Part shown: positions 3,617-58,571 of the stretch, in pieces
Layout: each line of letters begins with the position of its first letter
Position numbering within the stretch: position 1 is the stretch's first letter
DNA from: an uncultured Tenacibaculum sp.
GTDB taxonomy: Bacteria > Bacteroidota > Bacteroidia > Flavobacteriales > Flavobacteriaceae
Length of the DNA: 64,000 bases
NCBI GenBank assembly: GCA_947504185.1
Contig: CANNGJ010000011.1
Span: forward strand, 32,822-96,821
Direction: 5' to 3'
Position numbers and translations under genes: made by a program
Notes under the pieces: generated by a model
The model's database searches: none
The model's input: the letters and a program-made list of their open reading frames with translations, nothing else
Told to the model about the DNA's origin: nothing

Positions 3617-3827
3617 ATAGAAATCAACAATTAGTTAGTTGTAATTTAGTAAGTGTATTTTTTATAGTGCTATTGGTTAAAATAAGCGTAAAGCCATCAA
3701 TAATTAATACAACTCCAATATAAGACATTGTAATTTGAGTTTTTCTTAATTTAATATCCATAATTAAATGTTTTAAAGTTACTAACAGTATCTCATAAGC
3801 TTACCTCTAAATAGTTTACTTCTCAAT

Positions 3828-7828: not shown

Positions 7829-8728
7829 ATGGCTGAAGAAAACAATCAAGAACTAGATATTTTAGTAGCCGAAGATTCTTTCAAAAAATTACTGAATAGA
7901 CTTCCGGGTATTTTCTATTTGTACGAACATATTAATGATGATTTTTATCTAAAAGTATGGAATAAGCACCATGAAGAAGTAACGGAATATACGGCAAAAG
8001 AGCATTACAATATGAAACCTTATGATTTTATACCTTCCGTAGATAAGGACTTAATATATGAAACCTGTCGTAAGTTGATGAAAATAGAAAAGGTACAAGT
8101 AAAATCGGCTATCCGTTCAAAATCAGGAATTGATACACCCTATTTTTTTGAAGGCTATGCCTTTTCTTCTAATGGACGAGAATTTTTTATGGGTGTAGGT
8201 ATAGACCTATCCAATTACTCGGTAATGGAAAGAGAGTTAGAAGAAAGTAAACAAATTCTCGAAAAACTAGAAAAAGAACGTATTATACGCAACTTAAATA
8301 CCCAAAACAAAGAGTTGCTAATCTTTAGTGTAGAAATAGCAGAAAACAATAAGTTAAAGAAAGCAATAAGGAAACAAATAGAAGAAATAGAAAAATTAAA
8401 CACTAAAGAAGAAATCCAACAGGCACTTTTTAAACTTAAAAGTAGCATCGATGCCGATACAATGGATGATGCAAAATGGAATGCCTTTAAGTATCGTTTC
8501 AAAAACATCTACCACAACTTCTTTGACAGCTTATCTCACAAACACCCTACACTTACAGACTCCGATTTGTTATTCTGTGCTTATATAAAATTAAATATGC
8601 CTACCGAACAAATATCGTCTTTATTAAATATTTCTAAAATGGGCATCAAAAAAAGACGATACCGACTCAGAAAAAAACTACTTCTGAACGAAAAAGATTC
8701 CTTAAATCATTATATATCCTCTTTTTAG
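7829..8728 (+). CDS. PAS-domain protein with LuxR-like C-terminal HTH
   Basis: PAS-like N-terminus, coiled coil, C-terminal LTDSDLLFCAYIKLNMPTEQISSLLNISKMGIKKRRYRLRKKL. Confidence 0.75.
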   Translation: MAEENNQELDILVAEDSFKKLLNRLPGIFYLYEHINDDFYLKVWNKHHEEVTEYTAKEHYNMKPYDFIPSVDKDLIYETCRKLMKIEKVQVKSAIRSKSGIDTPYFFEGYAFSSNGREFFMGVGIDLSNYSVMERELEESKQILEKLEKERIIRNLNTQNKELLIFSVEIAENNKLKKAIRKQIEEIEKLNTKEEIQQALFKLKSSIDADTMDDAKWNAFKYRFKNIYHNFFDSLSHKHPTLTDSDLLFCAYIKLNMPTEQISSLLNISKMGIKKRRYRLRKKLLLNEKDSLNHYISSF

Positions 8729-8954: not shown

Positions 8955-10454
8955 ATGAAAACATTCAAATTCTCTTGGCTAACACTTATACTTTTTATAA
9001 TAAGTATAGGGTTTGTTCAAGCCCAAAACACTACAAAAGACAATCTTCAAAATGCAAAACTATATGGCGATGAAACCATAAACACGCCCATTGGGCAAAT
9101 CGTTTTAAAAGATAATTATATTGCTCAAGGTTCACAAGCCCTATTTGATGATATGGATTATCAACGTGCTTGCCAAGCCTATATTTGGTCTACCCCAGCG
9201 GTTTCTTATAAACAATGGCAAACGGCTCAAGCCAAAACATTTGATGCGTATAATTTAGGAGATTTTGTAGTGTACAAATCACTGCTTGAAAAAAGAGGAA
9301 TTGTTACTGCAAATTTAACTACACCCTATGTAATTAATTTCACATCTTTGAAAAAAGGAGCTATTATGGTAAAAATTCCGGCAGGACAAATTGCAGGAAT
9401 GTTTATGGACGTATGGCAACGCCCTGTATCAGATATTGGACTAACGGGACCAGATCAAGGAAAAGGGGCTACCTATATTGTGGTAGGACCAGAAGAGGAC
9501 AAATCTAAATACGAAGGCAAAGCGGACTATATCATACAATCTGCAACCAATAATCTTTTTATTGGCATCCGATTAATTGACCCTTCTCCAGAATTTGAAA
9601 AGAAAGTAGCCCAAGAAATGAAGGTAGCGCTAGTTGGACAACCATTAAAACCAATTCGTTTTATTAAAGGCGTAAATAAAGAATGGTCTGGCACCGCACC
9701 TAGAGGAATGGCATACTGGAAGTTGGTTAATCAGTTTATTCAGGAAGAACCTACACGGGAACAAGACAAAGCTTGGACAGCAATGTTAGAGCCTCTTGGA
9801 ATTAAAAAAGGACAAGATTTTAAACCCGATGAACGTCAAACAAAAATACTCACGCGAGGTGTAGCGATGGGCGAATTGATGGCGCGAAATCTTCAGACTA
9901 CCCCCCGAATGGCACAACCCTACTGGGAGAATACCAATTGGTATAAATGTTTTGATTTTACCGTTTCTCAGGAAACGAAAAACAAAATAGAATTGGATGA
10001 ACGCGTAGTATGGTTTTATGAAGCCGTAACTTCTTCAAAAGGAATGGTAACTCCTACAGTAGGAAAAGGACAAGTTTATATGACATCCAAAAAAGACAGT
10101 AAAGGCAACTGGTTACGAGGAGATAAAACGTACAAACTGCATATTCCAAAAGATGTTCCTATCAAACAATTTTGGTCTGTTACACTATATAGCGAAAATA
10201 CAAGAAGACCTTATAGTAACGGTGGAACAAAAATAAAAGACGGAACATTAGGGAGTAAAAGCAAACAACTACAATATAATAAAGATGGTTCTGTAGATAT
10301 TTATATCGGAGCCAAAGCACCCAAAGGAAAAGAAAGTAACTATTTAAAAACGATAGGAGATGATGGTTGGTTTGTATATTTCCGTCTATACGCCCCAACC
10401 GAGCCATTTTTCAATAAATCCTTTTCACTACCAGATTGGGAAATGATTGATTAA
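8955..10454 (+). CDS. DUF1254/DUF1214 domain protein, exported
   Basis: Signal peptide; YIWSTPAVSYKQWQ and C-terminal FWSVTLYSENTRRPY...DGWFVYFRLYAPTEPFF. Confidence 0.88.
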   Translation: MKTFKFSWLTLILFIISIGFVQAQNTTKDNLQNAKLYGDETINTPIGQIVLKDNYIAQGSQALFDDMDYQRACQAYIWSTPAVSYKQWQTAQAKTFDAYNLGDFVVYKSLLEKRGIVTANLTTPYVINFTSLKKGAIMVKIPAGQIAGMFMDVWQRPVSDIGLTGPDQGKGATYIVVGPEEDKSKYEGKADYIIQSATNNLFIGIRLIDPSPEFEKKVAQEMKVALVGQPLKPIRFIKGVNKEWSGTAPRGMAYWKLVNQFIQEEPTREQDKAWTAMLEPLGIKKGQDFKPDERQTKILTRGVAMGELMARNLQTTPRMAQPYWENTNWYKCFDFTVSQETKNKIELDERVVWFYEAVTSSKGMVTPTVGKGQVYMTSKKDSKGNWLRGDKTYKLHIPKDVPIKQFWSVTLYSENTRRPYSNGGTKIKDGTLGSKSKQLQYNKDGSVDIYIGAKAPKGKESNYLKTIGDDGWFVYFRLYAPTEPFFNKSFSLPDWEMID

Positions 10455-10496
10455 TATATTCCATTTTCTTAAATAATAAACTAAACAATTATAATT

Positions 10497-11915
10497 ATGC
10501 GCATTTTAGAACGCATCCTTACACGCTCAATTTTTCTACTGGCAATTTTCATGACTTTTGGTTTATCAAGTTGTAAACAAAGCACTAGAAACGCTTCCAC
10601 ACCAACCGATGATACTCTTAATAAAGAATTAGTAACCGCTGCTAAAGAAGCCTATATATTTTCTTACCCATTGGTAATGTATTACCAAACTATGTATTTA
10701 CAGGCATTAAACCCTAAAGGTGGTGTTGGCATGAATAAATGGTTGAATCTAGGGGTAAGTAGCCCACAAGATACTACCATTGTTACCCCAAATAATGATA
10801 GTCCGTATAGCTATGCTTGGGTAGATCTACGAGCAGAGCCCTATGTACTCACTTTGCCCAAAATAGAAGCCAAACGATTTTATACTTCCCAATGGAATGA
10901 TATGTATGGCTTTGTGTTAGACAATGCTGGTTCGGTAGGTGATGGAAATGATGGAGTTCGGGTATTATTAGCAGCTCCTGATTATTCAGGAGAACTGCCT
11001 AAAGGAGTAAACCGAATTATAAAAGGAGAGAGTTCTATTTTAGGGTCTCTAACTAGAACCCAGTTGATTGGTATGAAAGATTTACCACGCGTAAAAGAAA
11101 TTCAAAAGGAATACAAGTTAGAACCTTTGAGTTCTTATCTCGGAACAGAAGCTCCTTCGCCTGCGCCTGTCATAAATTGGCTTAAATGGAAAGCAGGAAG
11201 CGAAACCAAACCCGATTTCTGGAAATATGCTGGATTCATCTCTCAATTTTTAACAAAAAATGTAGCCGATAAAGCAAAATGGGATGCCTTGGCAAAATTT
11301 GGCTTCAAACAGGGCGAAGATTGGGAGGTTTCCAAATTAGATAAGGAGCATAAACAGGCACTTCTTCAAGGACAAAAAGAAGCTTTAACTTACCTACATG
11401 ATTTAGCTTCTAAACCTTTTGATCCTAAAAAATTCTTTAATCCCAGAAAAGGTTTTAAGAATATAAAACATCCCTATGAGCAACGTGCTTTAGGTGTAAT
11501 GGCAGGTATTTTTGGAAACACAAAAAACATTTCTGTGTATTATGGATTTCAGAAAGATGTTAAGGGCAATATTCCTGATGCCAGTAAATCGGTTTATACC
11601 TTAACTTTTAAAGCAGGGGAATTACCAAAGGTGAATAATTTTTGGAGTATTACGATGTACAGTTTACCAAACCGTTGGTTAGTACCAAATGAGTTAAATC
11701 GATATAGTATAGGCAGTGCATCAACCAATATGAAAGCAAACAAAGATGGGTCTTTGACTCTTTATATACAACCCAAAAACCCAGATGGAGAGAAAGAAGG
11801 CAACTGGTTGCCCTCCCCAAATGGTCCTTTTTGGATTGTTTTGCGTTGTTATGGTCCTGACGAAAGTATTATAAAAGGTACATGGCAAGAACCTGCGTTA
11901 GCTCCAGTGAAATAG
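10497..11915 (+). CDS. DUF1254/DUF1214 domain lipoprotein
   Basis: Lipobox LSSC; AYIFSYPLVMYYQTMY, TPNNDSPYSYAWVDLRAEP; tandem with preceding paralog. Confidence 0.88.
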   Translation: MRILERILTRSIFLLAIFMTFGLSSCKQSTRNASTPTDDTLNKELVTAAKEAYIFSYPLVMYYQTMYLQALNPKGGVGMNKWLNLGVSSPQDTTIVTPNNDSPYSYAWVDLRAEPYVLTLPKIEAKRFYTSQWNDMYGFVLDNAGSVGDGNDGVRVLLAAPDYSGELPKGVNRIIKGESSILGSLTRTQLIGMKDLPRVKEIQKEYKLEPLSSYLGTEAPSPAPVINWLKWKAGSETKPDFWKYAGFISQFLTKNVADKAKWDALAKFGFKQGEDWEVSKLDKEHKQALLQGQKEALTYLHDLASKPFDPKKFFNPRKGFKNIKHPYEQRALGVMAGIFGNTKNISVYYGFQKDVKGNIPDASKSVYTLTFKAGELPKVNNFWSITMYSLPNRWLVPNELNRYSIGSASTNMKANKDGSLTLYIQPKNPDGEKEGNWLPSPNGPFWIVLRCYGPDESIIKGTWQEPALAPVK

Positions 11916-48474: not shown

Positions 48475-48647
48475 GAATGCGTTCTATTTCAAGGGTTAAA
48501 CGTAGTTCTGCTTTGAGAATTCGAGAATTAGCGCCAAATTACTTTTAACCACCGATGACACACGTTTAGGCTCGAAGCCCGCAAGAGGAGATATAATTAA
48601 GATAAGGAGGAAAGTAATTTGGTAACCCTTGAGAAGAGAATACGTTC
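48475..48647. repeat. Structured element A: nested asymmetric inverted repeat
   Basis: GAATGCGTTCTATTTCAAGGGTTA (48475-48498) / TAACCCTTGAGAAGAGAATACGTTC (48623-48647); CCAAATTACTTT (48534-48545) / AAAGTAATTTGG (48611-48622); 35-nt conserved insert on the left side only. Confidence 0.75.
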
Positions 48648-48708
48648 TTTAAGATGCAGTTAAAACGTAGTTACACAGAGGGTTTTTTCATCTTTGTTGG
48701 CAGTAGTT

Positions 48709-49146
48709 TTATTTTACACAGTATTTTTTTGTCTGAATTAAAGGTAAAACAATTGGAATTAGAACTAATAAATTCATTAATGCATGAACTTTAAATCCTG
48801 TTACTAATGAGATATAACTATCACCAATGAACCATCCAACTGTAGAAAATAAAAATGTATACCAAGTCCATTTTAAACCATTCTTTATTCCGTGTTTTGC
48901 TAGAAAATAAATGGTTATTCCCCAGCTTACTAACAACCCTCCAGTTGCTCCATAAACAAACCGTTGAAATTTTAAATCTCCAGCGGATAATTGTCCATAC
49001 TTATCAAACGGAAAATAATTATCATAATACATTGAACCTAAAGTCCACTCCATAAATGGGGTAAAAGATAATAAGACTCCAAATGCTATAAGAGAAATTC
49101 CTATTACTTGAAGCCATTTTGTCCAAAAATTAAGTTTCGATTTCAT
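48709..49146 (-). CDS. Membrane protein, unknown
   Basis: Four hydrophobic segments, divergent from HxlR gene. Confidence 0.6.
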   Translation of the reverse strand: MKSKLNFWTKWLQVIGISLIAFGVLLSFTPFMEWTLGSMYYDNYFPFDKYGQLSAGDLKFQRFVYGATGGLLVSWGITIYFLAKHGIKNGLKWTWYTFLFSTVGWFIGDSYISLVTGFKVHALMNLLVLIPIVLPLIQTKKYCVK

Positions 49147-49219
49147 TGTTTAAGTTTTGAACAAATTTATATTCTATTTACTATATTTACAATAGTAATA
49201 TACTAAAGTATAGTAATAT

Positions 49220-49561
49220 ATGAAACAAGAAAAAATAGACAGTATGAAAAAAGAATTTATGGCTTTACAAGATTCTTTAGACATCATATCAGGTAAATGG
49301 AAAATTAAAATCATGGCCGTTTTATGTCAAGGGGAGTTTAGATTCTCTGAAATAGAAAAAGTAATCCCAGAAATAACTCCTAGAATGTTATCAAAAGAGT
49401 TAAAGTTACTGGTCCAAAATAAGCTTGTAACGAGAAAGGTCTATAATGACACTCCTGTCAAAGTTACCTATACATTAGATGACTATGGACTGTCTTTAGA
49501 GCCTGTGATACAAGAATTAGTGAAATGGGGAATGAATCACAGACGCAAAATATTTAAATAG
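49220..49561 (+). CDS. HxlR family transcriptional regulator
   Basis: LDIISGKWKIKIMAVLCQGEFRFSEIEKVIPEITPRMLSKELKLL. Confidence 0.94.
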   Translation: MKQEKIDSMKKEFMALQDSLDIISGKWKIKIMAVLCQGEFRFSEIEKVIPEITPRMLSKELKLLVQNKLVTRKVYNDTPVKVTYTLDDYGLSLEPVIQELVKWGMNHRRKIFK

Positions 49562-49570
49562 CTTCTTAAG

Positions 49571-49939
49571 TTATCTTTTTTCCAAGAAGTCATAAAATAT
49601 ATCCATCTCAACACTTGACGAGAATTTTTGATTACTCGCAAAAGACATCCACTTATCTGTGGTTTCTTTTGCGGATTTTGCATCTTTCCAATCTATTAAC
49701 CAAGTAAATACACAGGGGTCTTTGGGTGATTGGTACACTTCAAAATCTAGCAAAGTACCATTACTACTCTCTTGCATTTCTAAAATGATTGTTTTGTTGA
49801 GTTCTATTGCTCCTTTAAGTTTATTATTCTTGAATTTAAAAACGGCTATTTCTTTACATCTCATTTGATTTTCTATTCTGCCAACGTCTAAGTTGTGGTT
49901 AGTGTAGGGTTTAAAGTTACTAAATTTTCGATTAAGCAC
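49571..49939 (-). CDS. Hypothetical protein
   Basis: 122 aa ORF, downstream member of a minus-strand cluster. Confidence 0.45.
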   Translation of the reverse strand: MLNRKFSNFKPYTNHNLDVGRIENQMRCKEIAVFKFKNNKLKGAIELNKTIILEMQESSNGTLLDFEVYQSPKDPCVFTWLIDWKDAKSAKETTDKWMSFASNQKFSSSVEMDIFYDFLEKR

Positions 49940-49995
49940 TTAACCAAAACTTGTCTAAAACCTTTAAACTTTGGACTAAACACCAAACCCTGTAA

Positions 49996-50451
49996 TTAAT
50001 TATGGGCATTGAGGGCATTTCGTTTTTCTACGTACTTTTCTAGGTCTTCATTAAAAAGATTAAAATCAGCAAAACCTTTTTCAATTTTCGCCCATAAAAT
50101 TTTTATAAGTATCCCTTTTCCTGTCCAGGTTTGGATAAATTTTGTTCTATTGTTAGGCAGGGGAATAAAATCAAACTTATGGGTTAATTCCCCTATTCCT
50201 TTTGCAATAAGGACTTTGGATAATAAGAACCCCGCCCTTTTATTTATTGATACTACCTTTGGATTAAATGGCTTTTCTTTATTATTTAATTTTAAAACTA
50301 AAGCTAACTCTTTACCTACAATTAATTTTCCTTTTGCTTTTGGAATAATTGTGTTCCATTTATTATAATTTTCAAAATCAGAAACTATTTGAAAAAGAGT
50401 GTCCGAATTGATATCATAATTTTTTGAAATACTATATGTTTGAGACTGCAT
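49996..50451 (-). CDS. SRPBCC/START-like domain protein
   Basis: DTLFQIVSDFENYNKWNTIIPKAKG...LTHKFDFIPLPNNRTKFIQTW. Confidence 0.83.
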   Translation of the reverse strand: MQSQTYSISKNYDINSDTLFQIVSDFENYNKWNTIIPKAKGKLIVGKELALVLKLNNKEKPFNPKVVSINKRAGFLLSKVLIAKGIGELTHKFDFIPLPNNRTKFIQTWTGKGILIKILWAKIEKGFADFNLFNEDLEKYVEKRNALNAHN

Positions 50452-50459
50452 ATTTTTCT

Positions 50460-51236
50460 TTAATTAGGACAACCTATTAGGTATATTTTTTCAGATTCCC
50501 CCTTAATAATTCCTTTTTCCCAAGTGTAATTTTCGTTTCCTAATCCTTTTAATAGAATATCTAAGTCATCCATTCGATAAATTCTTCCACTAGTTATTAC
50601 AGCATCCCAAGCAAAACAAATAGGGATGATTGGAATTAAGTAAGTAAAAATAATTTGTTTAATCGTTAACGGTTTTACTAGTGGTGTTATAAATAAACAT
50701 AGAATAGCACTTAATGGAATAAGCAACCACCATAAAACAATTGGAAATTTTTTATTGATTTCCATAATGCAAATGGGTTGTTCTTTTCTTTGAGCTTCTT
50801 TAAGAATCGATTTTGCCAGATTTGGTTTCATATGATGAAAACTACCAACCATAGTTAGTATTCCTTTTATATCATTATCAATATTTGTTGCATCTAAAGG
50901 CTCGGTTCTATAATAAATATGATTATTTAGTTGGTTTATTCTTTTTGCATCTTCCAAGTTTGGGTATAGATCGGTTAATACTAGTTCAATATTTTCAATT
51001 TTATAACTATTTTTCAATTGAGAAATAGTGTCTAACATAGGCCCTCCACTTCCAGAACATAAATCAATAATTTTAGTTGTATTCGTTTGTTTAATTAGCT
51101 TGACAAGTAGTTTGGCCATATCTTCGCTAGTTTTGAACTTTTTATGCATTACCAATATAAGCCGGGTAAGGCAAATTCTAATCCAATTAGGGAACCATTG
51201 TAAGTCTTCAAATTCAAATAAATGTATTCTTTTCAT
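50460..51236 (-). CDS. Class I SAM-dependent methyltransferase with hydrophobic C-terminal part, copy 1
   Basis: IIDLCSGSGGPMLD motif I; paralog of 57795-58571. Confidence 0.82.
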   Translation of the reverse strand: MKRIHLFEFEDLQWFPNWIRICLTRLILVMHKKFKTSEDMAKLLVKLIKQTNTTKIIDLCSGSGGPMLDTISQLKNSYKIENIELVLTDLYPNLEDAKRINQLNNHIYYRTEPLDATNIDNDIKGILTMVGSFHHMKPNLAKSILKEAQRKEQPICIMEINKKFPIVLWWLLIPLSAILCLFITPLVKPLTIKQIIFTYLIPIIPICFAWDAVITSGRIYRMDDLDILLKGLGNENYTWEKGIIKGESEKIYLIGCPN

Positions 51237-51242
51237 TTTCTA

Positions 51243-51635
51243 TTAGTTTCCAATTAATGTTAGTATCCCTATCAATAAAAGTACTATCCATCCAGGATGT
51301 TTGCCTTTTGTTCCTACTAAAACCAGAGCAGAAGATAAAAACATAGTGCAAATGATTGCATTTAGAATCAAATCAATCAATTCTGTATTTTTCAGGTTTT
51401 CAATTGCTGCTATTTTAAGTAAAATAGCACCTATACACCACCCAAAAACAGAAGCTAAATGCCATGTAGCCCATAGTATTCTTAAATGCCTTTCTTTTAG
51501 TTCAACGTTTCCTTTTGAAGGAACTAAATTTCCTTTCTCTTTTTTATTTTTAAAAATTAAGTATTCCCCAAGGAATGAATGAGCAGCCCCTAAAAAGAAA
51601 CTTAAGATACTAGCGATTAAAAGATATGAATTCAT
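51243..51635 (-). CDS. Small membrane protein
   Basis: 130 aa, four hydrophobic segments. Confidence 0.6.
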   Translation of the reverse strand: MNSYLLIASILSFFLGAAHSFLGEYLIFKNKKEKGNLVPSKGNVELKERHLRILWATWHLASVFGWCIGAILLKIAAIENLKNTELIDLILNAIICTMFLSSALVLVGTKGKHPGWIVLLLIGILTLIGN

Positions 51636-52142
51636 TTTTGTGCTTTTTGTTGATTAGTCATTTTTTTTAATTGATTACTTCTCGCTTTTGAACTTTAATT
51701 CTCTAACATATTTCATGCTTTTCCATAAAGAGACATTCCCTTTTAAACCATTTGTTAATTTTATTCTTCTATTTAATTGTTCAATTTTTTCTTCCCCGGC
51801 TTTTCTTTTTTCGTCTAATTTACTATATAGTTTAATGGTAGTGTAGCTCTTCCTTGAAGAGGGATTTAATCCAATAGAAATAATTGCTACTAACTCCTAA
51901 AGACAGGTGTTCTTGTTGGTTTAGTATGAACTGGGAGCTATTATGGAAATTTCTCAAAATAAAAACCCTATTGAGGCTGCTGTTGGATTGATATTTACAT
52001 CAACAGAAGCAACCGATACATAAAAATTAGATTTGAAACTTTTATTAAAAAGCATTTTCATTTTTTTTAATCTTTAATTATCTTATCATTTTGATATACC
52101 TGCAAAGGTAAATTCAATAGTAGAGATATCATTTGATATAAA

Positions 52143-52736
52143 TCAAATTCGCGTTTTTAATTTTCGTATTCTACTCAATGTTTCGAGTGTAATGCCAATA
52201 TAGGATGCGATATGCATTAAAGGAACTCGTTGAGTAATATTTGGGTAAGCTAACAAAATGTTTTGATACTTCTGTTGGGCAGATTGAAATTGCATTGATA
52301 CAACACGTGCTTGCAATTTTAACATTGTTTTAGTGGCAACTCTGTTTGTTAATCTTTCGAAATCGTGGTATTTATCTGATAATTTCATAATCTGGTCTCT
52401 CGAAATGACTAATAATGTAGTATCTTCTATTGTCTCTATAAAATGCGGGCTTGGGATGTTTTGAAAAAAACTATTTATAGCGCAGATAAAATCATTTTCA
52501 AAAGCAAACCAATCTGTAACGTCTTTTCCATCATTAAGATAGTATGCTCTTGCACTTCCATTAACTATGAAATACGCTTTATCAGAATGTTGTCCTTCTT
52601 TAACTAAAATTACTCCTTTTTTTAAAGTTAATATTTTAGAATTATTAAAGAATTCTGATTTGCACTCGGAACTCAAAGGAGCATATTTAATGCTAATGGT
52701 ATTTATTATATCTTTTTTAGTCATTTTAAATTCCAT
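52143..52736 (-). CDS. Crp/Fnr family regulator
   Basis: cNMP-like jelly roll (GVILVKEGQHSDKAYFIVNGSARAYY) and C-terminal HTH VPLMHIASYIGITLETLSRIRK. Confidence 0.92.
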   Translation of the reverse strand: MEFKMTKKDIINTISIKYAPLSSECKSEFFNNSKILTLKKGVILVKEGQHSDKAYFIVNGSARAYYLNDGKDVTDWFAFENDFICAINSFFQNIPSPHFIETIEDTTLLVISRDQIMKLSDKYHDFERLTNRVATKTMLKLQARVVSMQFQSAQQKYQNILLAYPNITQRVPLMHIASYIGITLETLSRIRKLKTRI

Positions 52737-52872
52737 ATTTTTTTTCAGGATGTTAGATAATAAATCTATGCTTTTTTTAAATTGTCACAACGGCAACATG
52801 TATATGAGGAGAGAGAGGCTGAAGCTCGATAGCCGCCATTACTGCACCTTGCTGGTTATATATTTTGTTATG

Positions 52873-52893
52873 GTGAGCGCTCCCACTGCTCAC
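52873..52893. repeat. Intergenic hairpin within a compositionally distinct non-coding segment
   Basis: GTGAGC-GCTCCCACT-GCTCAC. Confidence 0.6.
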
Positions 52894-53122
52894 GCACGAA
52901 TATAATAAAAAAACCATGTTCATTGAGCAACGGGGTGCGTATCAGGTTGCTGCTAGGATGAATTGTACGTGAGTATTACACGATAACAGAATGCAAGTAC
53001 ATGACATAGTGTATGTCTTGTGTATGAGTAGTAGCGGATTATGTACAAAACTCTCGTTTAAGCAAAGGTTTCCCCGTTTTTACTTACTTTACTTTTAGCG
53101 ATTAAGCCACTATTTTTTAATA

Positions 53123-53338
53123 TTGTTAGAGCCACAGCCCTTTATTCATTTTTCTTATAGGTTAGATCGATGTAAACACAACAAGGCTTGTAGAGAATTA
53201 TATAAAAGAATTGTTGCTAAAGGAAAGAGCAAGAAGTTAACTTTGATTGCAGTGTCAAATAAACTATTAAAACAGGCATTTGCAATCGCAAAAAGTGGAT
53301 TGCCTTATGATGAGAATTTTGTTTCCAAATTAAGTTAA
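53123..53338 (+). pseudogene. IS110-family transposase C-terminal fragment
   Basis: CKHNKACRELYKRIVAKGKSKKLTLIAVSNKLLKQAFAIAKSGLPYDENFVSKL matches the IS110/IS116/IS902 C-terminal domain pattern. Confidence 0.87.
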
Positions 53339-53380
53339 AAAGACTTGTTTTTTAACTCAGTTCTTTGTTGTAAGCCGTTT

Positions 53381-54142
53381 TTATTTCGTTTTATCAATCA
53401 ATTTTAGAACTTCATCAGCTACAAACTTTCCACCATTAGCAAAAGAAGCAGTTATCAATCTGTTTTCAGAATCTACGATTTCATAATTTATTTTCTTTTC
53501 GTGATTATACACTTTCAAATTAGCACCTCTTTTTAGTAATTCAGTTTCCATATCATAAGGCAATAATTTTCCAAAGCCGGATTGTTTCATTATGTTTTTT
53601 TCATTCCAAGTAGGAAAACTTGTCATTGTCTTGTCTTTTACCAAATACTCTCCTGAATTCAATTTAACATCGATAAGTGTTGCTGTTCCGTGACCGATTG
53701 TTCCGACAATTCCTCCATTATCATATATCTCTGATATCACTCGAAGAATATCTACATCTTTATGAGTGTCCCAAAATTGTCCATATCCACCAGGAATGAT
53801 AACAGCTAAATACTCTTCTGGATTAATTTCTGTCGGTTTTAAACTATTCTTTATCTTACTTTGTAATAGTTCACTTTTGATAATTGATTTAACTAAATTC
53901 GTTGTGTCTCCGTTATGGTAGATTGGAATTTCTCCACCTTTTGGTGATACAATATCAATTTTAAGATTCTTTTCAGAGAATTTATTGAAAGGAATTGCCA
54001 ATTCAATCAAATAAGTTCCATTTGGTTCATTTTTCATTTCATTAACGTTGGTTGTAATGAAAAGGATTTTCGTTTTTTCGTTACTCTTATTACAAGAAAT
54101 AACTAAAAAAAATAATAGTAATAATGTAAAAATCTTGTTCAT
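53381..54142 (-). CDS. DJ-1/PfpI (type 1 glutamine amidotransferase-like) lipoprotein
   Basis: Lipobox; KILFITTNVNEMKN, AVIIPGGYGQFWD, VGTIGHGTATL (nucleophile-elbow position). Confidence 0.88.
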   Translation of the reverse strand: MNKIFTLLLLFFLVISCNKSNEKTKILFITTNVNEMKNEPNGTYLIELAIPFNKFSEKNLKIDIVSPKGGEIPIYHNGDTTNLVKSIIKSELLQSKIKNSLKPTEINPEEYLAVIIPGGYGQFWDTHKDVDILRVISEIYDNGGIVGTIGHGTATLIDVKLNSGEYLVKDKTMTSFPTWNEKNIMKQSGFGKLLPYDMETELLKRGANLKVYNHEKKINYEIVDSENRLITASFANGGKFVADEVLKLIDKTK

Positions 54143-54168
54143 AGTTCTATTTTTCTCAAATGGTGTAC

Positions 54169-54450
54169 AATGATCTGCTAAACGCAGTTCTGCTTTGCGA
54201 ATGAAAAGATAATAAATTTAAGTAACAATGATTTGAGAATTAGACCAATGTTAGTTTAGTTATCTCAAATTATTGTTTGTCAACAAGGTAGCGTAGCTAC
54301 CGTTAGTTGTTAAATTTATTAGATTGAGAATTCAAGAAGTAGAATCAAATTGCTTTTAGCATACTGTTATTAGTAGTCCAGCGCTTTGTGCGAGTAAGCT
54401 ACGTGGGTTAAATTGAAATTGCGTAGAGCAATTTGGTTTAGCAGGTCATT
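54169..54450. repeat. Structured element B: nested inverted repeats sharing a core with element A
   Basis: AATGATCTGCTAAAC / GTTTAGCAGGTCATT; CAAATTGCT (54346-54354) / AGCAATTTG; inner AATAAATTTAAGTAACAATGATTTGAGA against TCTCAAATTATTGTT + TTGTTAAATTTATT. Confidence 0.75.
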
Positions 54451-54537
54451 ATTCAGCAATTTAGTGAAAGACGCATAGTTTGAGAGCTTTAGCGATCAAC
54501 GCGGATTTGACTCCCGCGTAGCGGGATTGCTGAATAA
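54449..54537. repeat. Inverted repeat with internal hairpin, abutting element B
   Basis: TTATTCAGCAAT ... ATTGCTGAATAA, with TCCCGC-GTA-GCGGGA inside. Confidence 0.75.
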
Positions 54538-54654
54538 CGTGTTTGTGTATGATTTCGTTGCGTGTTTTAAGCATTAAAGTTAGTAAATAAATACAGATAA
54601 AAAGCTCGTAAGGACTTTCGTAAATTGGCTAAAACTAGCAATTAATTTTATACA

Positions 54655-55075
54655 ATGTTGGCAACTGGCTTTTGTTGGTCTCAAATTTAACTAAAAATTT
54701 TATCTTCTGCTGTTTATGTCGAATCAAAGAATAAATGGTCACACACAGTTTCAAGGTTAATAGTTCTTGTAGTTTTAAGTACAAAAGATAGATGTTTAGT
54801 GTTAATAAGCGATGTTCGGAAAAGATACAGAAAAATATTAGCACAAGTAGTTGATGTAGAGATGATTAATGTTTTTAAAGGTGTAATAAGTAAGGACTAT
54901 ATCTATAAAGAATATCATTCGTTATAAGATATAAGTAACCTAGTTAAGAAATTGAAAGAAAGAAAATCGAGACAATTACTACAAGATTTTCCTAAACTGC
55001 ATAAGAGATATTTGGGGCGTTATTTTGGGCAATAGGCTTAGATATTAGAGTACAGGTAATATGGTGATGTGCACT
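54655..55075 (+). pseudogene. Degenerate IS200/IS605-type Y1 transposase (TnpA)
   Basis: Frame from 54721: KWSHTVSRLIVLVVLSTKDRCLVLISDVRKRYRKILAQVVDVEMINVFKGVISKDYIYKEYHSL* then DISNLVKKLKERKSRQLLQDFPKLHKRYLGRYFGQ*; HUH motif eroded, multiple stops. Confidence 0.85.
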
Positions 55076-55095: not shown

Positions 55096-56070
55096 TCAAA
55101 CTCCTTCAGATTTCCTTATATGTGCGTTTACTTTACTCAATATTTTTTTTGGATTTTCCAGTTGAGGGAAATGCCCAACGGAATCAAGTTTTATAACATT
55201 TGAATTTGGTACAAGTTCTATATATCTTTCAACAGTTTCGCTTCCAGTAACAGGATCAAGTTGTCCGCTTATGTATAGAATAGGTACTTTAGGTGAAATT
55301 AAAGCACTAACCCAGCGTTCTCTATTTATTTTGCGGTCATTTGATGCGTGAGTAAGTTTGTCGGCAATTTTATAACCCTTTTGATGACAAATTATATACC
55401 ATTGATCTATTAATTCTTGTTGAGTTGGTTGGGTGTTAGGTCCAAAAACTTTACTGAAACTTTTACCAAATAATGTTTGATTCATGAAAGACGTTACAGT
55501 ACCGCCAATCGGACTACTCAATAATTTCTGAATCGTTGTTGGGCGATGAGTTTCGGGAAATAGTCCACCATTTAAGAGTATTAAGGATTCTATTTTTAAG
55601 AAATACTTTTCTTTTTGTTCAATATTCCTTGCTAAGATTTCCTGCGCTACATTATCTCCATAGTCATGAGCGATAAGATTTACGTTTGCAACATTTAGAT
55701 TTTTCAATAGAGCTTCTAGAATATTTGTTTGCATAGAAATTGTATAACCTATGTTATCAGGCTTATCAGAGAATCCAAAACCTAGCATATCCATTGCAAT
55801 TAAACGATAATTGGTATTAAGTTCTGGCCATATTAAACGCCAATCATATGATGAAGTAGGATAACCATGTATAAGAACAATTACTTTTTTTGATGTATCT
55901 CCTGAATCATGATAAGATAATTTATGGTTTCGATACCTAAATGTTTTCTCTGTTGATTTCCAATCGAGTAAACTCTGGCTTATATTTTCTATTGAAGGAG
56001 TTTTATCCAATTTAGTATATAAGAAAGCAATTACGATAAGTGTTAAGCTAGCAATTAAAGTTTTTTTCAT
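55096..56070 (-). CDS. Alpha/beta hydrolase, haloalkane dehalogenase/epoxide hydrolase-like
   Basis: VLIHGYPTSSYDWRLIWPEL, LIAHDYGDNVAQEI (nucleophile Asp), VGHFPQLENP. Confidence 0.88.
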   Translation of the reverse strand: MKKTLIASLTLIVIAFLYTKLDKTPSIENISQSLLDWKSTEKTFRYRNHKLSYHDSGDTSKKVIVLIHGYPTSSYDWRLIWPELNTNYRLIAMDMLGFGFSDKPDNIGYTISMQTNILEALLKNLNVANVNLIAHDYGDNVAQEILARNIEQKEKYFLKIESLILLNGGLFPETHRPTTIQKLLSSPIGGTVTSFMNQTLFGKSFSKVFGPNTQPTQQELIDQWYIICHQKGYKIADKLTHASNDRKINRERWVSALISPKVPILYISGQLDPVTGSETVERYIELVPNSNVIKLDSVGHFPQLENPKKILSKVNAHIRKSEGV

Positions 56071-57615: not shown

Positions 57616-57794
57616 TGTTTCGTTTTATTTTTTATTGTAATTAAGTGTAACCTCTGGAGTATGAAATTGTAGTGTGTTTAATGTAACTAAATTTCAGGTT
57701 ATGTACTTATTGATTTTGTAAACAACCATAAGTTTTTTTGTTGGCATTAGATGTTTTATATTTTCTTATACCCCATTAGTATTTCGTTTCTTCT

Positions 57795-58571
57795 TCAACT
57801 TGGATAACCCATTAAATAATTTTTTTCAGAGTCCCCTTTTATAATTCCTTTTTCCCAGATGTAATTATCGTTTCCTAACCCTTGTAATAAAATGTCTAAA
57901 TCTTCCATTCTATAAATTCTGCCACTAGTAATTACTGCATCCCAAGCAAAACATATGGGGATAATTGGGATTAGGTAAGTGAAGATAATTTGTTTTACTG
58001 TTAGTGGTTTAACTAATGGTGTAACAAATAAGCATAAAATAACACTTAATGGAATAAATAACCACCATAAAATGATTGGGAATTTTTTATGTATTTCCAT
58101 AATGCATATTGGTTGTTTCTTTTTCTGTGCTTCAACCAAAATTTTTCTAGCTAATTTTGGTTTCATATGATGAAAACTTCCAACCATAGTTAATATTCCT
58201 TTAATATCAGTGTCAAGTTTTGTAGCGTCTAAAGGAGTTATTCTATAACTGATTGAATCATCTACCTTGTTTATTTTTTTAGCCTCTTCTAGATTTGGGT
58301 ATAAATCTGTTAAAAGGAGTTCTATGTTTTCGATTTTATGAATATTTTTTAATTTAGAAACCGTATCTAACATAGGGCCTCCACTTCCAGAGCATAAATC
58401 GATAATTTTATTGTTATTGGTTTGCTTGATTAATTTGGAGAGTAATTTTGCCATATCCTCACTTGTATTAAATTTTTTATGCATTACTATAATTAGTCGA
58501 GTGATACTAACCCTAATCCAATTAGGAAACCATTTTAAATCTTCAAATTCAAATAAATGTATTCTTTTCAT
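57795..58571 (-). CDS. Class I SAM-dependent methyltransferase with hydrophobic C-terminal part, copy 2
   Basis: Near full-length paralog of 50460-51236. Confidence 0.82.
   Translation of the reverse strand: MKRIHLFEFEDLKWFPNWIRVSITRLIIVMHKKFNTSEDMAKLLSKLIKQTNNNKIIDLCSGSGGPMLDTVSKLKNIHKIENIELLLTDLYPNLEEAKKINKVDDSISYRITPLDATKLDTDIKGILTMVGSFHHMKPKLARKILVEAQKKKQPICIMEIHKKFPIILWWLFIPLSVILCLFVTPLVKPLTVKQIIFTYLIPIIPICFAWDAVITSGRIYRMEDLDILLQGLGNDNYIWEKGIIKGDSEKNYLMGYPS

Follow-up and report, generated by a model that had tools for sequence, protein, structure and literature searches.

Two structured elements, A and B, in the window studied here (the whole 64,000-nucleotide stretch of DNA from an uncultured Tenacibaculum sp.) are very probably folded single-stranded recombination sites of an integron-like cassette system of the Bacteroidota. 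On sequence grounds, they are assigned to a second, larger type of site (F) of this system, beside a standard type (M). In the mechanism proposed, the catalyst would be a tyrosine recombinase akin to IntI and XerA but devoid of the IntI-specific insertion; acting at G^TT, it would join an attI site beside the integrase gene (TATATAACGAG^TT) with the attC-like sites at cassette ends. On excision, the cassette would circularize, bringing the ~14 nt that precede the site (..xxxAAC) together with the ~14 nt at the start of the same cassette (GTTxxx..); by base-pairing, these two ends would fold the site into a single hairpin on the strand opposite to that of the gene. The F site would close a gene-less cassette body (E) of ~80 nt, and E-F would insert between a standard M site and the next gene cassette as an empty, self-spreading cassette. 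The features that argue for this reading, all seen at the level of sequence, are the arrays and their orientation, boundaries and breakpoints located to the base, covariation, strand asymmetry, attI, and the adjacency of the integrase.

The core common to A and B, first noticed in a sequence-only reading of this DNA, is present in exact form in both elements, on the + strand and with 0 mismatches (Table 1); it has no third match within the 64-kb window, and a search of the organism's own genome gave 2 matches as against 0 for a reversed-pattern control. All of the arms quoted in that reading are present in the two elements, which were drawn there on the + strand, the strand opposite the genes. 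The stable secondary structure that it claimed was borne out: as single-stranded DNA both elements adopt branched folds, with energies of −21.6 kcal/mol for A (z −3.5) and −45.9 kcal/mol for B (z −6.7), and in neither case was any of 200 shuffles equally good. The extent of B had been underestimated, since the element is present but its structure extends further to include the hairpin module E (54450-54537) and a third structured site (54536-54660), the structured tract that includes B being 54171-54672. Similarly, the insert described in the left side is present, but in B it also houses a ~130-nt nested hairpin pair that is absent from A. The complementarity of the arms was kept in the inner arms of 12 longer copies, but the outermost arms, and only these, were mismatched in about 4 (L034, L035 twice, and L027), or about one-third of the longer F copies; the counter-evidence specified in the sequence-only reading, arms that are not complementary, is thus partly seen, and chimeric outermost arms of this kind are the outcome expected of recombination between sites.

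Table 1. Positions of the elements, neighboring sites, and genes in the 64-kb window
Feature	Position	Strand	Remarks
Outer extension of A (GAATGCGTTCTATT)	48475..48488	none	pairs with 48632-48646 (GAAGAGAATACGTTC)
Element A, putative F-type attC-like site, short form	48489..48632	minus (gene orientation)	arms TCAAGGGTTA/TAACCCTTGA and CCAAATTACTTT/AAAGTAATTTGG; core 48499-48520
R''-like cassette end AAACTACTGCCAAC (gene orientation)	48690..48709	-	just past the stop of gene 48709-49146
Cassette gene	48709..49146	-	stop adjoins R'' of A
Probable third attC-like site, decayed, CTCTAACAATATT..CATACACAAGAC	52770..53135	-	read by eye
IS110-like element, 3' end (..KLLKQAFAIAKSGLPYDENFVSKLS)	53123..53375	+	directly adjoins R'' (junction of GCTTACAAC and AAAGAACTGAG)
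Cassette gene, DJ-1/PfpI-like by reading	53381..54142	-	between R'' and B
Next-cassette start TTGTACACCATTTGAG (gene orientation)	54155..54170	-	directly before gene 53381-54142; A where G expected, decayed
Element B, putative F-type attC-like site, long form	54171..54449	-	core 54181-54202; nested hairpins 54206-54330; inner arms CAAATTGCT/AGCAATTTG, outer arms TGATCTGCTAAAC/GTTTAGCAGGTCA
E module, putative gene-less mini-cassette body	54450..54537	-	complementary ends TTATTCAGCAATC/AATTGCTGAATAA, 12/13
M-type (standard) attC-like site beside B, ~126 nt	54536..54660	-	right end CACACAAACACGTT, left end AGTTGCCAAC; model R1 105.7 bits, E=7e-19
Gene, alpha/beta hydrolase-like by reading	55096..56070	-	upstream of the M-type site

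The complete order M-E-F is found at B, whereas A is a short F site beside a decayed neighbor, and the outer extension of A bears a likeness to the end arms of the E module. In the window, neither A nor B is followed by an intact GTTR or by a matching R'' downstream, so that the fit to the downstream R'' failed; because no GTTR follows them, both copies are taken as decayed. The R''-like end near A is assigned as the remnant of a decayed standard attC. A further structured insert lies in the probable third site and extends to the start of the next cassette, GTTGTGACAATTT; the site gave no match to model R1 at E<=1 over 52770..53135. The IS110-like end next to it is also found in L032 (- strand, near 3704). 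By eye, no Y1 HUH transposase, the mark of IS200/IS605 and REP-RAYT, was recognized among the genes near the elements. A methyltransferase-like gene occurs twice in the array region (50453-51236 and 57788-58571), the copies lying 7.3 kb apart with ~83% DNA identity over 300 nt.

A search of same-genus genomes with 130 bases from the right end of B as the query identified co-oriented arrays of the ~126-nt M sites beside a tyrosine recombinase in seven relatives (G201, G203, G205, G208, G209, G210, and G213), and a further array is present in the organism's own genome on contig C41. The sites are spaced at 0.45-2 kb and read, in gene direction, xxxAAC-ACC-GTATAT..TTATTGC....GCAACAAA.CATATAC-AAACAC-GTTxxx. 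Small genes alternate with them: the 177 intervals between sites have a median length of 645 nt, and 114 contain an ORF of at least 60 codons (none is present in the other 63). The ORF is on the strand of the site in 93 cases, and the median distance from its stop to the following site is 12 nt. The left end of an integron site belongs to the preceding cassette, which starts at the previous site, and each left flank was therefore compared with the start of its own cassette, as well as with the right end of the same site and with permuted starts, using 110 unique neighboring pairs. The left flank is 85-95% complementary to its own cassette start at most positions, out to ~14 nt, as opposed to ~35-45% for the right end of the same site or for permuted starts. 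No pair was seen at position 11 of the gene strand, where C is opposite A. The two ends of each cassette are thus complementary over 13-14 nt and, because the partners sit at opposite ends of the cassette, closure of the site is possible only in the circular, excised form; this covariation between cassette ends is evolutionary evidence for excised circles as a selected substrate. The crossover point is indicated by comparisons within G213, counted as pairs and not as independent events, in which sites with identical left 200 bases precede different cassettes and diverge 2-3 bases past the G in most pairs, while the converse comparison places divergence 2-3 bases before the TT; divergence on both sides locates the exchange within CG/TT. 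The canonical GTTRRRY core is absent from M sites, which have GTTR followed by cassette-specific bases.

An exact scan for the A/B core, using one genome per species, found it in 20 Flavobacteriaceae stretches, most of them from Winogradskyella and Seonamhaeicola; viral contigs gave no match. The core is often ~60 bases from a contig end, and two copies on one contig share direction, a pattern typical of repeats at which assemblies break. Full repeats terminate in ..TATACATTGTTGGC, as is the case for B (54649-54662). Read in gene direction, an M site comes first in the longer copies, followed by E (~80 nt), F, and then the next cassette, with F bearing the core and terminating at the GTTR of the next cassette. 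F is complementary at 12 or more of 14 positions to the own end (R'') of the downstream cassette in 20/37 copies, against 1.7% for permuted starts. The ends of E bodies are complementary at 11-13 of 13 positions in 9/12 copies, and the bodies mostly lie directly after the right end of a site; some begin with G^AT and not G^TT. The complementary ends and this placement suggest that E-F is built like a cassette that has no gene but an elaborate site, and it may still be mobile. In a covariation table for F, based on few sequences and with the core of A badly placed relative to the long copies, 19/70 pairs had double changes and the covariation term was not favorable; because of this misalignment covariation adds little for F, and the boundary tests carry the case. 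Three sites (L018, L022, and L024) are chimeric: an M-site left half (or the end of a gene) is fused to an F-site right half, apparently through a common hairpin sequence. Separately, a Chryseobacterium plasmid array (L084:6000-6160, 8080-8415, and 10265-10830) has gene-less hairpin modules (GTTGGGAAAAATCGCCC..GGCCAGCTCGG..) at attI and attC-like sites, which follow the same plan as E-F but are unrelated to it in sequence.

The many near-identical copies per genome, often at contig ends, could also suggest a different nature for E-F (A and B), namely a small MITE-like mobile element, unrelated to cassettes, that targets the attC/cassette junction, and the IS110-like element in the same kind of site indicates that site-targeting elements exist here. 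This is considered unlikely, since E has cassette-like complementary ends and follows the right end of a site, F ends exactly at G/TT with extended cassette pairing downstream, and the modules of the Chryseobacterium plasmid, lying directly at attI and attC, have the same plan without sequence relationship.

The structure of the M sites was analyzed with R-stem covariation computed on 35 reconstructed circles. In these, 94.7% of cells are paired in the proposed 27-pair structure, and the covariation score of 0.514 compares with 0.141 for shuffled (0/500) and <=0.105 for slid alignments. M sites have the paired R and L boxes of attC-like sites. Two of the pairs are G.T in 33/35 circles and appear as A.C mismatches on the gene strand; energy calculations indicate that the strand opposite the gene is the more stable in 150/150 M sites (mean −26.8 versus −21.3 kcal/mol), an advantage in folding to which the two near-invariant G.T wobbles contribute. 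The folded strand would presumably be the substrate for recombination. These observations bear on the two options offered by the sequence-only reading, a structured RNA or a folded single-stranded DNA recombination site. Stable, conserved folds lie upstream of genes, and the RNA fold of the whole region (B plus flanks) has a z of −6.8, as might be expected of a structured non-coding RNA between genes, such as a riboswitch, attenuator, or sRNA; the fold of A alone with long flanks is weak as RNA (z −1.1). However, the covariance models of Rfam 15 gave 0 matches over the 64-kb window, the stronger folding of M sites is on the strand opposite the gene, and the partners of the R-stem, located at the two ends of a gene cassette, can pair only once the cassette has circularized. 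A structured RNA was rejected as the main reading because of this location of the pairing partners, and is thought very improbable; nothing that was found requires RNA. The recombination-site option, on the other hand, gains from the elements ending exactly at cassette boundaries and having attC-like neighbors with covariation and strand asymmetry.

The attI-like motif TATATAAC(N)(A/C)G^TT is located 8-161 nt past the integrase stop in 9/9 loci, including contig C41 of the organism's own genome; in all nine, ATATAAC follows the stop, and then G^TT and the start of the first cassette. The genome encodes two integrases with attI and cassettes, a divergently transcribed one of 278 residues on contig C10 (L055:2027-2863) and a co-oriented one of 369 residues on contig C41 (L056:9449-10558). 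The C10 gene has TTATACTAACC^GTTACCAATAATGC upstream, and the start there matches the end of its cassette at 14/16 positions. The proteins belong to the Phage_integrase family and are close to the XerA/integron-integrase model NF040815 (219.1 against a cut-off of 220). In an alignment with IntI4 (2A3V), 15 residues correspond to 58 in IntI4, which indicates that the 43-residue IntI-specific insertion, the domain around patch III, is missing; this insertion has been described as essential for integron function (Smyshlyaev et al., PMC8138268). The long type of integrase has an extra N-terminal domain of ~75 residues, weakly matched in Pfam by DUF5710 (one member only, E=2.5e-4), which could bind folded or branched DNA. 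The N terminus of the long type (A2 columns 1-80) reads as beta-beta-alpha-beta-beta-alpha-beta. The predicted fold (pLDDT 79, pTM 0.48) bears out the assignment to the tyrosine recombinases but is uninformative about the substrate. The adjacent integrase is presumed to catalyze cassette recombination; that the enzyme lacks an insertion said to be essential, and that the partner enzyme of F sites could differ from that of M sites, weigh against the overall reading, as do the decay of the two window copies, the mismatched outermost arms, and the genomes that have a site or a strong integrase match without the other. That a conventional IntI encoded elsewhere moves the cassettes, the adjacent recombinases being bystanders, is scarcely credible, for although one integron is confirmed in the Bacteroidetes, in Salinibacter ruber (PMC9024848), 0/39 relatives encode a protein above the integron-integrase cut-off (TIGR02249), and attI and the first cassette lie downstream of the stop at 9/9 integrase loci.

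With a covariance model of the M site (match, E<=1e-3), sites were detected in 225/251 Flavobacteriaceae genomes, representing 212/237 genera, with at most 12 sites counted in any one genome. In a sample of the phylum, 71/198 Bacteroidota genomes have site matches and 70/198 a strong integrase match (E<=1e-55); the two occur together in 44 (Fisher p=6e-9), while the site is present without a strong integrase match in 27 genomes, and a strong integrase match without the site in 26. Genomes without a site match include many small ones, and some sites are scattered and distant from any integrase. It should be noted that the evidence for the specificity of the model comes from the 127 negative genomes of this sample, all within the Bacteroidota.

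The system shares with integrons (IntI/attI/attC, as in the Vibrio cholerae superintegron and class 1 integrons) an integrase beside attI, co-oriented tandem single-gene cassettes, imperfect inverted-repeat sites with two paired boxes, a G^TT crossover, strand-asymmetric folding, and gene-less cassettes. It differs in that the integrase lacks the IntI-specific insertion and often has the N-terminal domain, cassette ends pair over ~14 nt as compared with the 6-7 nt of the integron R box, G.T wobbles are near-invariant, and GTTR is followed by variable bases in place of GTTRRRY. In the sedentary chromosomal integron of Treponema denticola, the integrase is transcribed in the direction of the cassettes, as is the 390-residue integrase type here, but the integrase and sites are ordinary IntI and attC. 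IS1111-attC elements and group IIC-attC introns are located at the attC sites of ordinary integrons; IS110-like elements or ends directly at R'' (window 53123-53375; L032; L084:9272-10273) resemble the former, whereas E-F encodes no protein and has the boundaries of a cassette. The closest solved structures to the integrase, in both sequence and fold, are those of XerA and archaeal Xer recombinases (5HXY and 4A8E), which do not manage cassette arrays. Most Flavobacteriaceae and much of the Bacteroidota probably contain a separate class of integron, with IntI/XerA-like recombinases lacking the IntI domain, strand choice built into G.T wobbles and a 14-nt stem formed only in the circle, and gene-less cassettes such as A and B.

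For the Bacteroidetes, the IntegronFinder 2.0 paper gives only In0 elements from earlier work and one complete integron, in S. ruber (PMC9024848), and a Tenacibaculum genome run through IntegronFinder was reported to be without integrons (PMC10013915). Reviews list the Bacteroidota among phyla with integrons (PMC8618304). The absence of the 43-residue insertion may be the reason why IntegronFinder reported almost no Bacteroidetes integrons. No description of the Flavobacteriaceae arrays was found in the open-access literature, so that their novelty is provisional, as is the view that a system occurring in the majority of the Flavobacteriaceae sampled has gone unrecognized. Gene capture proceeds in large part through integrons, of which published surveys have recorded hardly any in a phylum where one family has the sites in most of its sampled genera. 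A system that appears to work without an insertion held to be essential makes the recognition of folded attC directly testable.

The resistance gene tet(X3) adjoins TpnF, a 47%-identical relative of the integrase (L083:4700-6240, plasmid FJ012881; L082, NZ_CP104735). It starts after CTTG^TTATGTGCCATTTT and has AAAACGGCTACTAAC behind the gene, and these are partly complementary, with 3 mismatches and the usual C.A at position 11. This raises the possibility that tet(X) was formerly a cassette in a system of this kind, a link that would tie the system to a resistance gene of current concern.
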